Shown: positions 39,837-44,337 of the stretch, piece after piece
Numbering within the stretch: position 1 is the stretch's first letter
How the letters are laid out: each line of letters opens with the position of its first letter
DNA from: Acidobacteriota bacterium
Lineage (GTDB): Bacteria; Acidobacteriota; UBA4820
Length of the DNA: 64,000 bases
Reading direction: 5' to 3'
Assembly: GCA_029559035.1 (NCBI GenBank)
Contig: JAKQCT010000017.1
Location: 1 to 64,000 of the forward strand
Translations under genes and position numbers: made by a program
Notes under the pieces: model-generated
What the model was told of the DNA's origin: nothing
What the model saw: only the letters and a program-made list of their open reading frames with translations
Database searches by the model: none

Positions 39837-41408
39837 CTACTTTTTCTTCTTCTTCGGGACCTCGGCGGAATTTTTGTCAGTTATGTCCCTTACTATCGCC
39901 GTGACTTCGTTCTCTCCGCTCCTGACCATCCTGGCTTCGTATTTTCTTGTTCCCTTCTCCGGGATCGGGAGTTCGTAGCTGTATGTCTGCAGGTCTCCTG
40001 TTTCAAGCGCTTTTGCTATATATCCCGCCGTAAGATCGACAATCTCCCGTGGAAGGATCTCGCCCAGTTTTTTGCCGATGAAAGTTGTTTTTCCCCTGTA
40101 ATAGAGATCGCCCCTCTCGGCCTTGTAGTCGAGGAACACCCCTTCCCTGTCAAGCCGGAACATCATGTCGGGTATCGCTTCCAGCATCGCCTTCGCCTTC
40201 AGCTCACTCTCCCTCAGTTTTTCCTCCGCCTCTTTCCTGTCCGTTATGTCCAGTTCCACTCCGTCCCATTGCGTGGAGCCGTCTTGCAGAAGGGTGGGAT
40301 TGGAAACGAAGGAAGACCAGCGGATCGAGCCGTCGGGGTTTCTCAGCCGAACTTCGGCCCTGAACACTGACAGGCTGCTGTTGGCTTCTTCTTCCAGCCT
40401 CCAGACCTTTTCCCTATCCCCGTCAAGGACCCGAGAGTAGATAAGGTCCGGGTTCACCAGCGCTTTTTCCGGTTTTATTCCGTACATTTTCCTGACCGAA
40501 TCGCTCAGGTAGGTGAACCTTCTCGAACCGTCCTTCAGCCGTAGGAGCTGGTACACCATCCCCGAAACCAGGTTGTTGTTGATGCTGCGGATAAGGTCTT
40601 CCGTTTTTTTGGCCATCTTTTCAGCGTTTTTCCGCTCGGAAATATCCCTGAAGATCCCCATGAGGACCGTCTGCCTGTTGAACCTTGTGGTCTGAGCCAG
40701 CACTTCGACGGGCACTTCCGTGCCGTCCTTCTTCAGGACTGATATTTCGGTCAGGTCGGAATGGCCGTAGCTCTGCGATTGGCCGAGATGAAGATAGAAG
40801 ATCTCCCTGGCGTGCTCCCTGATGTCAGGCGGATGGAGCTCCGCCTGGCTCATCCTCAAGATTTCTTCTTTTCTTCTGCCCAGAAGGCGGCAGGCGGCTT
40901 TGTTGGCGTCCACGATCCTTCCGTTGTTGTCCGCGAGAAAAATTGCGTCGGGAACGCCGTCAAAAAGAGCTCCGAACCTTTCCTCGCTGTCGTACTGTTC
41001 TTCCTCCGCCCTTTTTCTATCTGTAATGTCGATGAAAGACGCCTGGAATCCGATGCGGTTCCCATCCTCGTCTTGGACCGAAGCCGCTGAACCGAACCCT
41101 CGGAAGGCTGTCCCGTCGAGCTTGAAGTCTGCGAACTCCCCCTCCCATCTCCCCTCTCTCTCCAGGGAGGCCATTATCGAGGCACGGTGGGATTCCGTCC
41201 TGATGAAATCTCCCAGCCTGCGGTTCAGGACCTCGCTCTTGCCGGAGTATCCCCACATCCTCAAGAAGGCGGCGTTGACATCCGTCAGGACCCCGTCGGG
41301 GTTCGCGAGCGCCTGCGCGCTGACTGAAGACTCGAAAGATCCGCGCAGGAAGGCTTCCTGCTTTTTTATTTTCGTTTCCCCCTGGTTCTTGCGACTGTTA
41401 TCCTCCAT
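39837..41408 (-). CDS. Multi-PAS sensor protein without output domain, 523 aa
   Basis: Four PAS domains follow one another: about 20-130 (ANPDGVLTDVNAAFLRMWGY), 145-260 (IFLADNNGRIVDANKAACRL), 270-395 (PAS_3-type with RNPDGSIRWSSFVSN) and 400-515 (MMFRLDREGVFLDYKAERGD), each ending in an ITDRK-like helix. No histidine kinase, GGDEF, EAL or DNA-binding part follows, and the protein ends in a lysine run. It may pass its signal by binding a partner. The ATG at 41408 has AGGAGAGAGG directly upstream and is preferred over 41453, which lies within the upstream gene. Confidence 0.82.
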   Translation of the reverse strand: MEDNSRKNQGETKIKKQEAFLRGSFESSVSAQALANPDGVLTDVNAAFLRMWGYSGKSEVLNRRLGDFIRTESHRASIMASLEREGRWEGEFADFKLDGTAFRGFGSAASVQDEDGNRIGFQASFIDITDRKRAEEEQYDSEERFGALFDGVPDAIFLADNNGRIVDANKAACRLLGRRKEEILRMSQAELHPPDIREHAREIFYLHLGQSQSYGHSDLTEISVLKKDGTEVPVEVLAQTTRFNRQTVLMGIFRDISERKNAEKMAKKTEDLIRSINNNLVSGMVYQLLRLKDGSRRFTYLSDSVRKMYGIKPEKALVNPDLIYSRVLDGDREKVWRLEEEANSSLSVFRAEVRLRNPDGSIRWSSFVSNPTLLQDGSTQWDGVELDITDRKEAEEKLRESELKAKAMLEAIPDMMFRLDREGVFLDYKAERGDLYYRGKTTFIGKKLGEILPREIVDLTAGYIAKALETGDLQTYSYELPIPEKGTRKYEARMVRSGENEVTAIVRDITDKNSAEVPKKKKK

Positions 41409-41449
41409 CCTCTCTCCTCTGCCGCTTACGATCCCCCTCCGCCGCCATG

Positions 41450-41851
41450 TCATTTCACGAACATACGAACCAGAAAAAACACCGCTATCGTGATAATCGC
41501 TATCAGGGACCCGATGAAAAGGATCCCGTAAAAGGTCTCCCTGTTGGCCTTTCTCTCTCTCTTTTCGATCATGCTCTCGAACTGCTCAAGAGCGCTCCTC
41601 GCGTTCGCGCTGTCCTGGACGAGCTTCAATTTGAAGACCACGGCTTTCAGCCTGTCCCTCCCCGCATCGGAGACGGAGGGAGTGTCGGACTCGATCAGGG
41701 GGATGCACTTGATCCCCGCTTCGACAAGGACTTCGGGGGTTCCGGGCAGGTAGCCGTTCCGTATCGCCCCGGCCTGCAGTTCGCCGCTCTTTTCGCCGGC
41801 GGACCTGTGAAATTCCTCGAGAAGCTTCCGCTCCGAATCAACGCCGTTCAA
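41450..41851 (-). CDS. Tail-anchored small membrane protein, 133 aa
   Basis: The bulk is a soluble helical domain (RDRLKAVVFKLKLVQDSANA, LEQFESMIEKRERK), and the last about 25 residues form a single membrane helix (FYGILFIGSLIAIITIAVFF) with a short LVRMFVK tail. It is not recognised. The start is TTG with GGGGGAA nearby. It sits 13 bp from the DUF2721 gene and about 40 bp from the PAS gene, so the three may be co-transcribed; a role in membrane signalling is conjecture. Confidence 0.62.
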   Translation of the reverse strand: MNGVDSERKLLEEFHRSAGEKSGELQAGAIRNGYLPGTPEVLVEAGIKCIPLIESDTPSVSDAGRDRLKAVVFKLKLVQDSANARSALEQFESMIEKRERKANRETFYGILFIGSLIAIITIAVFFLVRMFVK

Positions 41852-42356: not shown

Positions 42357-44210
42357 TCACTTTTTGAGCGTGAAGGCGTAGTTGAGGGTATAGTTCGTCT
42401 TCACTCTGAGGTTGTTCTTCATTCCGGGCGAGAATTTCGTCTTTTTCGCAGCCGCGACGCACGAGTCGAATAGCCCGTGGTCCGGGTTCGGGCCCCTCAC
42501 GACCTCCGCGCTTGTCACACCCCCGTTCTCGTCGATCTCCACCTTCACGTAGACTCTCCCCTCGACCTTATTCTGCCTCGCGAGGGGCGGGTAGTCCGGT
42601 TCAACCTTGTTGACCTGCTGAGGCCTTACGTCTAGGGACACATAGTCAACGAAATCACCCTGCTTGACGGCCTGTTGAGAAGGCTGTTCCGGGGAGGCCG
42701 GCTGGGCTTCGGGCTGGGGCTCAGGCTTCTTTTCAGGCTCTTCGGCCTTCTCTCCCGGCTGGGAGTTCGCGCCTGCCGGCTGAACAAGCGCGGGCGAGGG
42801 CGCTGTGACGGCGGGCTTGGCTTCCGGCGCCGCCGGCTTCTTCACATCCTGGACGACCTTCTGCGCTTCGTCCAGTTTTTTCTTGGCTTCGTCGAGGGCT
42901 TTCTGAGCCGCAGCTTTCTCTTCCGGAGTCTTCGCCTGGGCCACCTGTTCTTCCTTCTGCCTGGTCTCGCTCTGAAGCCTGTCGAGCTGTTCCTTGAGCT
43001 GCCTGTTCTGCTCTTCGAGGGCTTTCATCTTCTGAGTTTCTTCTTCCCTGGCTTTCTGCTCCTTTTCCTTGTCGGCGCCGCCGCTGAAGATCAGCCAGCC
43101 TATCACCGCGATGACGATGACGGCCGCCACGGCGCCGATCCCGATGAAAAGCCTCTTCCTGCTCTCCGGTTCGGTTTCGGTCTCAAGCCCGAAAGTCGAG
43201 GGGGGCGATTCGGGCTCCGCGGGAGGAGGCTGCGCGGGCGGCCTCGGGAGTTTCTTTTCCGGCTTCGGCTCGAACGGCTTCCTTTCGATCTTCAGGAACT
43301 GCTCGTCCTTTTCGGCCTCTTTTTCGTCCTGGTCCCTGTAAAGCGTGTGGATCAGGAAAGCGGTGTTGAAGGTCGAAGGGCTGTATTCACCGGAGTTGAC
43401 CAGTTCGTCGAGGTCCGCCTTCATCGACTCGAGGTCCCTGTAAGCGCCCTCCGAAGCGGGGTTCAGGCTCCGGTCGAGTATCCTCATCAGGTTCGCGGGA
43501 AGGCCCTCTCCCATCCCGATCCCCTTCCTGGCCTCATCAAGCCTGGCTTTCGGGTCGAAAGGCTGTCCCGGGACTTCGAAGGTCTCCCGGCAGAGGAACT
43601 CGAACATGATAAGCCCCAGGAAATAAACCTGGTCCCTGGGCTTGACCGGCCTCCCTTCCCTGAGGTCCGGCGGATAGGAACGGGTGAACCTCTCCACCGT
43701 AGTCGAGTGCTTCAGTGGCGTGGAGTGAAGGTCCCTGAACGCGCCGGGAAGCAGCCTGACCTCTCCTTCGAAGGTTACGAAGATCTGTTCGGTCGTGAGA
43801 TTGCCGTAAAAGAAATCCTCGTTCTTGACCGAAAGAAGCCCCTCCAGGATCCTGGACGCCAGGTAGACGGCTTGGTCGAATGCGAGGGGGAGGCATTCCC
43901 TCGCGCATTCGGCGAGGAGATTTGAAAGGAGCCTTCCCCTTTCGTATTCGAAAGCGTAGAAAAGCTGGCCGTCCTTCTCCTGCCAGTCGGTCAGGTTGAG
44001 CGTGTTGATATCCTTGATCCTTTTCCATTTCTCGAAGCAGGCCTTAACCACGGTGGCGGTCTGCGGGTCTTTCCTTATTTCCTCGTTGAGCGTGTGGACA
44101 AGGAATATCTTAGGATCGCCTTTCAGAGGTATCGCCTTGAATATCTTGCCGAAAGCGGTTTCGGAGAATTCTTCGAGCAGGATGCAGCTTCCCAGAACCT
44201 TCATATCCAT
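42357..44210 (-). CDS. Pseudokinase-TonB C-terminal fusion membrane protein, 617 aa
   Basis: Residues about 1-280 look like a protein kinase fold that has lost catalysis: FFYGNLTTEQIFVTF occupies the place of the HRD loop, and LLPGAF that of DFG. A Pro/Glu-rich linker leads to a membrane helix (about 355-377, GAVAAVIVIAVIGWLIF). A coiled coil (about 380-470) and a Pro/Ala-rich stretch follow, then a TonB-type C-terminal domain (about 528-617): VEPDYPPLARQNKVEGRVYV, CVAAAKKTKFSPGM. This would span the periplasm and contact an outer-membrane partner, with a cytoplasmic pseudokinase as sensor. I chose the ATG at 44210 because GGGGGAA is 7 bp upstream; the frame continues to 44318. Confidence 0.8.
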   Translation of the reverse strand: MDMKVLGSCILLEEFSETAFGKIFKAIPLKGDPKIFLVHTLNEEIRKDPQTATVVKACFEKWKRIKDINTLNLTDWQEKDGQLFYAFEYERGRLLSNLLAECARECLPLAFDQAVYLASRILEGLLSVKNEDFFYGNLTTEQIFVTFEGEVRLLPGAFRDLHSTPLKHSTTVERFTRSYPPDLREGRPVKPRDQVYFLGLIMFEFLCRETFEVPGQPFDPKARLDEARKGIGMGEGLPANLMRILDRSLNPASEGAYRDLESMKADLDELVNSGEYSPSTFNTAFLIHTLYRDQDEKEAEKDEQFLKIERKPFEPKPEKKLPRPPAQPPPAEPESPPSTFGLETETEPESRKRLFIGIGAVAAVIVIAVIGWLIFSGGADKEKEQKAREEETQKMKALEEQNRQLKEQLDRLQSETRQKEEQVAQAKTPEEKAAAQKALDEAKKKLDEAQKVVQDVKKPAAPEAKPAVTAPSPALVQPAGANSQPGEKAEEPEKKPEPQPEAQPASPEQPSQQAVKQGDFVDYVSLDVRPQQVNKVEPDYPPLARQNKVEGRVYVKVEIDENGGVTSAEVVRGPNPDHGLFDSCVAAAKKTKFSPGMKNNLRVKTNYTLNYAFTLKK

Positions 44211-44282
44211 ATCAAGTTCCCCCGAAGAAGTATACTTGCGCGAGCCATTCAAGTCAATTTCCGGCGGCTGATAGGCGGTTAC

Positions 44283-44312
44283 TTGCAAAAGCGCACCTTT
44301 TTCTGGTATATT
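44283..44312 (+). promoter_or_regulatory. Promoter of rpmB
   Basis: TTGCAA (44283-44288), an 18-bp spacer and an extended -10 TGGTATATT (TATATT at 44307-44312) precede the gene, about 26 bp upstream of the ATG. Confidence 0.78.
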
Positions 44313-44337
44313 ACCCATTTTCTTTTAGGAGTTTGAC

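Follow-up and report, generated by a model that had tools for sequence, protein, structure and literature searches.

A conserved acidobacterial pseudokinase with a TonB-type C-terminus and its co-occurring active sister kinase

The window gene and its domain layout

The window, that is, the whole stretch of 64,000 nucleotides of an Acidobacteriota contig that was analysed, carries on its reverse strand a gene lying between lpxB and a DUF2721 gene, with genes encoding a PAS-only protein and a small protein of the membrane also nearby. The open reading frame was listed as 653 aa, and the closest orthologue (617 aa) begins at the position corresponding to M37, so that the window protein is probably 617 aa long, with its start at 44210, as had also been given in the preliminary description of this DNA. 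Residue numbers below are those of the 653-aa frame, and all features lie on the reverse strand:

42357..44318, reverse strand: whole open reading frame, 653 aa (ORF listing; start taken from the closest orthologues)
43401..44186, reverse strand: pseudokinase domain, about residues 45-306 (AlphaFold2, pLDDT 93.7; Foldseek, PknA/PknB; phmmer against the PDB)
43800..43808, reverse strand: YGN (171-173) at the position of the catalytic HRD (alignment with active kinases)
43740..43748, reverse strand: PGA (191-193) at the position of DFG (alignment with active kinases)
43335..43385, reverse strand: signature motif YSPSTFNTAFLIHTLYR (312-328), an extension past the kinase fold (family alignments)
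43086..43139, reverse strand: membrane helix, residues 394-411, devoid of histidine (AlphaFold2 helix; hydropathy and histidine count over 80 relatives)
42840..43073, reverse strand: long helical, coiled-coil-like periplasmic segment, residues 416-493 (AlphaFold2 helices 416-461 and 465-493)
42651..42839, reverse strand: proline-rich spacer, largely disordered, residues 494-556 (pLDDT < 50 along most of its length)
42366..42602, reverse strand: TonB_C domain, residues 573-651 (Pfam PF03544, E = 1.2e-13; pLDDT > 90 over most of it)

The preliminary description had read the cytoplasmic part as a Ser/Thr kinase fold whose catalytic HRD and DFG motifs are replaced, continuing through a membrane helix and a coiled-coil/proline-rich spacer to a TonB-like domain. 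As Pfam Pkinase gave no match on the window protein, the fold was examined by phmmer, AlphaFold2 and Foldseek. Searching the PDB with phmmer matched the window protein to Staphylococcus aureus Stk1/PknB (E = 6.2e-6), and the AlphaFold2 model of residues 37-345, built with 43 aligned sequences, reached a mean pLDDT of 93.7 and a pTM of 0.92. Foldseek returned 1,998 PDB matches at E <= 0.001, and all 50 of those listed were kinases, two being kinase complexes; the best among those listed was PknA of Mycobacterium tuberculosis (4ow8; E = 8.7e-13; TM-score of 0.76 by target length), and PknA and PknB of this species were both among the top listed matches. On the strength of the predicted structure, the window protein has a bilobal eukaryotic-like Ser/Thr kinase fold.

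The remainder of the proposed domain order was likewise borne out, the full-length AlphaFold model, the profiles and the phylogeny being in agreement. The model shows the kinase domain, helices at 394-411, 416-461 and 465-493, then low confidence as far as about residue 547, and a confident C-terminal domain, the latter scoring 51.7 bits against the curated PF03544 cut-off of 24.6. In a Pfam scan of the window protein, TonB_C was the sole above-cut-off match outside the membrane and PASTA repeats were absent. As for the suggested pairing with ExbB/ExbD or TonB-dependent receptors, the window contig (C88) yielded no gene of either kind. The MotA/ExbB-family genes of this genome lie on contigs C3 and C6, and several TonB-dependent receptors are encoded in the genome; linkage of exbB/exbD to TonB is common, not obligatory.

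A pseudokinase family in Acidobacteriota

Alignment of the window protein with active kinases of the same genome placed YGN at HRD and PGA at DFG, and showed that the beta-3 Lys, whose column holds a His, and the Gly loop are lost as well (two active controls, L040 and L044, were misplaced in this motif alignment, and their HRD and DFG were taken from another alignment). A normal catalytic site elsewhere in the window protein, which the preliminary description named as a refutation, was not found. Within the family to which the window protein belongs, hereafter family B, the catalytic Asp of HRD is missing in 81/81 members (80 retrieved by the scan described below, plus the window protein), while the His of this motif is kept in 69/81 and Gly replaces Arg in 77/81. 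Judged from these alignments, the window protein is a bacterial pseudokinase, with a loss of the catalytic triad that is conserved across orthologues.

Some bacterial pseudokinases have been re-purposed (PMC12599244), and the HG motif is kept in most B members; the domain might be inactive as a protein kinase but catalyse some other nucleotide transfer, like SelO or SidJ. We consider this very improbable, given that the Gly loop, beta-3 Lys, catalytic Asp and DFG are all degraded, and differently from lineage to lineage, and that the most conserved residues (the TFN motif) lie outside the pocket. This motif belongs to the most conserved stretch of the family, located directly past the kinase fold, with the helix consensus YSPTTFNLAFFMH.LFR. 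TFN.A is invariant in the B family alignments; for members chosen in the scan by their TFN motif this invariance is partly by construction, and it holds equally in an alignment made from whole-protein matches.

Full-length relatives of 600-750 aa are widespread in Acidobacteriota, so that the fusion noticed in the window is a conserved one. A contig scan with the window protein alone as query gave no match, while an alignment-based scan gave relatives. Compilation of the searches revealed that (i) 53 genomes among 100 relatives carry a match at E <= 1e-10, some of these being to the TonB_C tail only, (ii) all 12 genomes of the same family and order (12/12) hold a long match of 41-62% identity, the copies of G008 and G011 being cut by contig ends and that of G002 having stops in the upstream aligned stretch, with the ORF proper open for 619 aa, (iii) a TFN-motif scan of 84,980 species yielded 147 relatives, of which 80 were kept, and a long B member is encoded at every one of these loci (80/80), and (iv) the kept loci are titled Acidobacteriota, a restriction that depends on the TFN motif pattern used in the scan, except for L123 (Bacillota) and L125 (Deltaproteobacteria), which resemble Acidobacteriota members and are probably mislabelled bins. 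At one locus (L106, 1543-5600), two B-family genes stand in tandem. The conservation of the window protein across the phylum excludes chance.

A partner gene conserved across the phylum was not found in the B neighbourhoods of relatives, where neighbours vary and where ORF calls in high-GC genomes are noisy, with many spurious antisense ORFs. In some relatives the neighbour is a 470-residue protein whose N-terminus we take for that of a glutamine synthetase, and elsewhere the N-termini are presumably those of ATP synthase and GroEL genes. Since the neighbourhood is not conserved, it names no pathway. Type VII secretion context is absent from the neighbours of the window gene. As separate observations, an FHA-GAF-adenylate cyclase gene lies two genes upstream of B in two Aminicenantes genomes (L089, 4708-6216, identified by Pfam; L121, 4681-6195, identified by similarity), and the window itself encodes, at 39837-41453 on the reverse strand, a 538-aa protein of PAS domains for which Pfam shows no output domain.

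An active sister kinase in the same genomes

A second family, hereafter family A, consists of a receiver-like domain, an intact kinase and, in most cases, a membrane helix plus TonB_C (matched by Pfam Response_reg, Pkinase and TonB_C), with lengths mostly of 920-1170 aa. The Lys, Glu, HRD, Asn and DFG are invariant in its alignment. In a kinase-domain tree of 24 A rows, 22 B rows and 6 other kinases of the window genome, obtained by a quick method with long-branch warnings, A (support 89) and B (support 99) were sister clades, the B kinase branches being several times longer than those of A. The simplest history is a single duplication, after which B lost its catalytic function.

The long branches might be taken as a sign that the gene is a copy of an active one and is undergoing decay. 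This reading is hardly conceivable in view of the full-length ORFs found phylum-wide, the invariant residues, the confident fold and the low dN/dS, which amounts to about 0.1 in the pseudokinase and comes from the single pair with usable dS, the kinase-region dS being saturated in 2/3 pairs. The window gene is not a broken gene.

The A gene of the window genome (G000:C57, equal to L170, 9506-12772, reverse strand) encodes a receiver-like domain, an active kinase, a membrane helix and TonB_C; it adjoins a gene read as ffh and precedes genes interpreted as a BtuFCD-like set with a TonB-dependent receptor. Two further loci of this genome were recorded: G000:C49:51581-53113 (L011), where an active kinase comes after a degenerate one (HGQLTHES) in a single 982-aa frame, and G000:C28:28671-32738, where a kinase, a TonB_C protein and another kinase lie close by, possibly forming a second kinase/TonB cluster. 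In the A receivers, read by a rough pattern, the phospho-Asp position is mostly Ser, Thr, Arg, Glu or Ala, and a few keep Asp. A phospho-receiver input to A was therefore rejected, the domain being mostly a pseudo-receiver.

In an even draw of 247 genomes from the phylum, 66 carried both A and B, 5 B only, 8 A only and 168 neither (Fisher P = 1.5e-44), the sets being drawn from score thresholds and a reading of frame lengths, so that single assignments may be off. Counted by taxonomic family, 21 had both, 2 B only, 4 A only and at least 15 neither (P = 4e-6); the co-occurrence is partly shared ancestry, which this family-level test merely reduces. Four of the B-only genomes (G008, G104, G150 and G243) have no clear A, and the fifth (G136) has an A fragment on a short frame. 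A occurs without B in families f17, f34, f35 and f37, and the A-only genomes held no B scoring above generic kinases. In the genomes examined, the two genes were on separate contigs or at a great distance from each other.

When A was compared with B, TonB_C identity averaged 41.7% for pairs from one genome and 34.3% for pairs from different genomes, while the kinase domains are about equally distant in both settings (25.8% and 25.0%). With one genome per family, the TonB_C values were 42.8% versus 34.6% (P = 5e-5), and the kinase comparison gave P = 0.08; after removal of the three most similar pairs, TonB_C identity was still 38.8% within versus 34.0% between genomes. This excess likeness suggests a shared partner for A and B; gene conversion could fit it too. 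In Holophagaceae (L206, L207, L208, L213 and L214), A is devoid of TonB_C and has a membrane helix at its C-terminus; the A of family f38 (L209 and L210) has neither TonB_C nor such a helix at its end, is apparently soluble and ends in LLKKFGIK. B retains its full arm, including TonB_C, in both lineages, where, to judge by these domain assignments, the dead partner is the one predicted to span the periplasm.

The TonB-type arm and the candidate roles of B

TonB and TolA contact their motors via an SHLS motif (PMC12204202). Histidine is absent from the membrane core in 80/80 B relatives by hydropathy and histidine count, while the membrane helix of a TonB-like protein encoded beside ExbB on contig C3 of the same genome has such a His. 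As the motor-binding His is absent from the B membrane helix, a standard ExbB-driven TonB role is unlikely. The median length of the spacer that links the membrane to TonB_C is 158 residues, which could, in principle, span the periplasm.

These data bear directly on the possibility that B is a true energy transducer, namely a TonB powered by ExbB/ExbD, with the kinase-like head gating the choice of receptor. In its favour, the Pfam match to TonB_C is genuine, ExbB-type motor genes and several TonB-dependent receptors are present in the genome, and the A gene lies upstream of the set read as BtuFCD plus receptor. Set against this are the membrane-core His found in 0/80 relatives, where TonB and TolA use SHLS (PMC12204202), its presence in the genome's own TonB beside ExbB, and the internal position of the B membrane helix, behind a 300-residue cytoplasmic domain; we thus regard energy transduction as improbable. 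B resembles TonB and TolA in its membrane helix, proline-rich or helical spacer and TonB_C (PMC12204202), and differs from them by the large cytoplasmic domain in front and the lack of the SHLS histidine.

The known membrane-anchored pseudokinases offer another comparison. Like B, EssB/YukC begins with a pseudokinase in the cytoplasm, whose catalytic motifs are all degraded, and continues through one membrane helix to a part outside the cytoplasm; it is a non-catalytic scaffold (PMC12599244, PMC9600267). EssB/YukC belongs to Firmicutes, is devoid of TonB_C and is tied to a secretion system, in contrast to B, which occurs in a Gram-negative phylum, carries a TonB_C tail and has no conserved operon. 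It is possible, if rather unlikely, that B is a self-sufficient scaffold of this kind, with a pseudokinase that dimerises and recruits a cytoplasmic protein, an arm and TonB_C that bind peptidoglycan or an outer-membrane protein, and with A serving an unrelated function. The scaffolding action of EssB/YukC (PMC12599244), the existence of TonB-like proteins with roles other than nutrient uptake, for instance SjdR with its effect on septal peptidoglycan (PMC8262864), the four B genomes without clear A and the variable B neighbourhood are in line with this proposal. However, 66 of the 71 B genomes also carry A, and the within-genome likeness of the A and B TonB_C domains exceeds what the relatedness of the kinase domains predicts.

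The reading that we favour, holding it with about equal belief and doubt, is that B is the inner-membrane, non-catalytic, envelope-spanning partner of the active sister kinase A. B, made up of a cytoplasmic pseudokinase, one predicted membrane helix, an arm in the periplasm that is helical and proline-rich, and TonB_C, would have arisen via one ancient duplication inside a receiver-kinase-membrane-TonB_C lineage, losing catalysis and retaining the fold, the post-kinase helix with its TFNxAFFMHTLFR signature and the envelope-spanning arm. It would bind A in the cytoplasm through the pseudokinase and the signature helix, its arm and TonB_C would hold on to a partner in the periplasm or outer membrane, or signal that partner's state, and B would thereby place or switch A. 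Physical contact between A and B, regulation of A and a binding target of TonB_C are what we infer here. The preliminary description's idea that the protein links cytoplasmic state to an outer-membrane partner is plausible, and is changed by the co-occurring active sister kinase and by the missing ExbB-coupling His. More tentatively, and with doubt outweighing belief, A and B may constitute an acidobacterial kinase/pseudokinase receptor pair, so far found only in Acidobacteriota, derived from one receiver-kinase-TonB_C ancestor, in which the dead partner has an obligatory TonB_C arm and the state of the periplasm or outer membrane controls Ser/Thr phosphorylation.

A 2025 review distinguishes seven bacterial pseudokinase families, ActPs1-3, GLW, CP1, DYD and DLHK (PMC12599244); it mentions neither TonB nor Acidobacteria, and family B is not among the seven. 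These families share with B a bacterial Ser/Thr kinase fold with lost motifs, and GLW has a membrane helix after the kinase; B differs in that its HRD is mostly HGx and in having the TFNxAFFMHTLFR post-kinase helix and the TonB_C tail. The PknA/PknB-type receptor kinases are the closest solved folds and have the same order of kinase, membrane helix and outside domain, but they are catalytically active, with PASTA outside in PknB, whereas B is dead and carries TonB_C. Family A is the sister of B by its kinase domain, and most of its lineages carry the same membrane/TonB_C tail; it is set apart by its active kinase, its receiver-like N-terminal domain, the lack of the TFN signature and the loss of TonB_C in Holophagaceae and f38. 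Provisionally, no paper on a pseudokinase or kinase fused to TonB was found in the open-access literature, subscription papers and preprints being outside this scope. What is new is that B is widespread in the phylum, that it is sister to an active kinase built on the same architecture, that the two co-occur and that B lacks the motor-binding residue of TonB.

Few bacterial pseudokinases have an evident active partner, and as a group they are scarcely characterised; B is one half of a conserved pair of paralogues, one dead and one live, with a TonB_C tail in common. As B is present in cultured Geothrix, Acanthopleuribacter and Sulfidibacter, pseudokinase regulation of active sister kinases, as in eukaryotes, becomes directly testable in bacteria. 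Overall, the data suggest that B and A form a signalling pair reaching into the cell envelope, and that TonB_C is used here apart from ExbB-driven transport.
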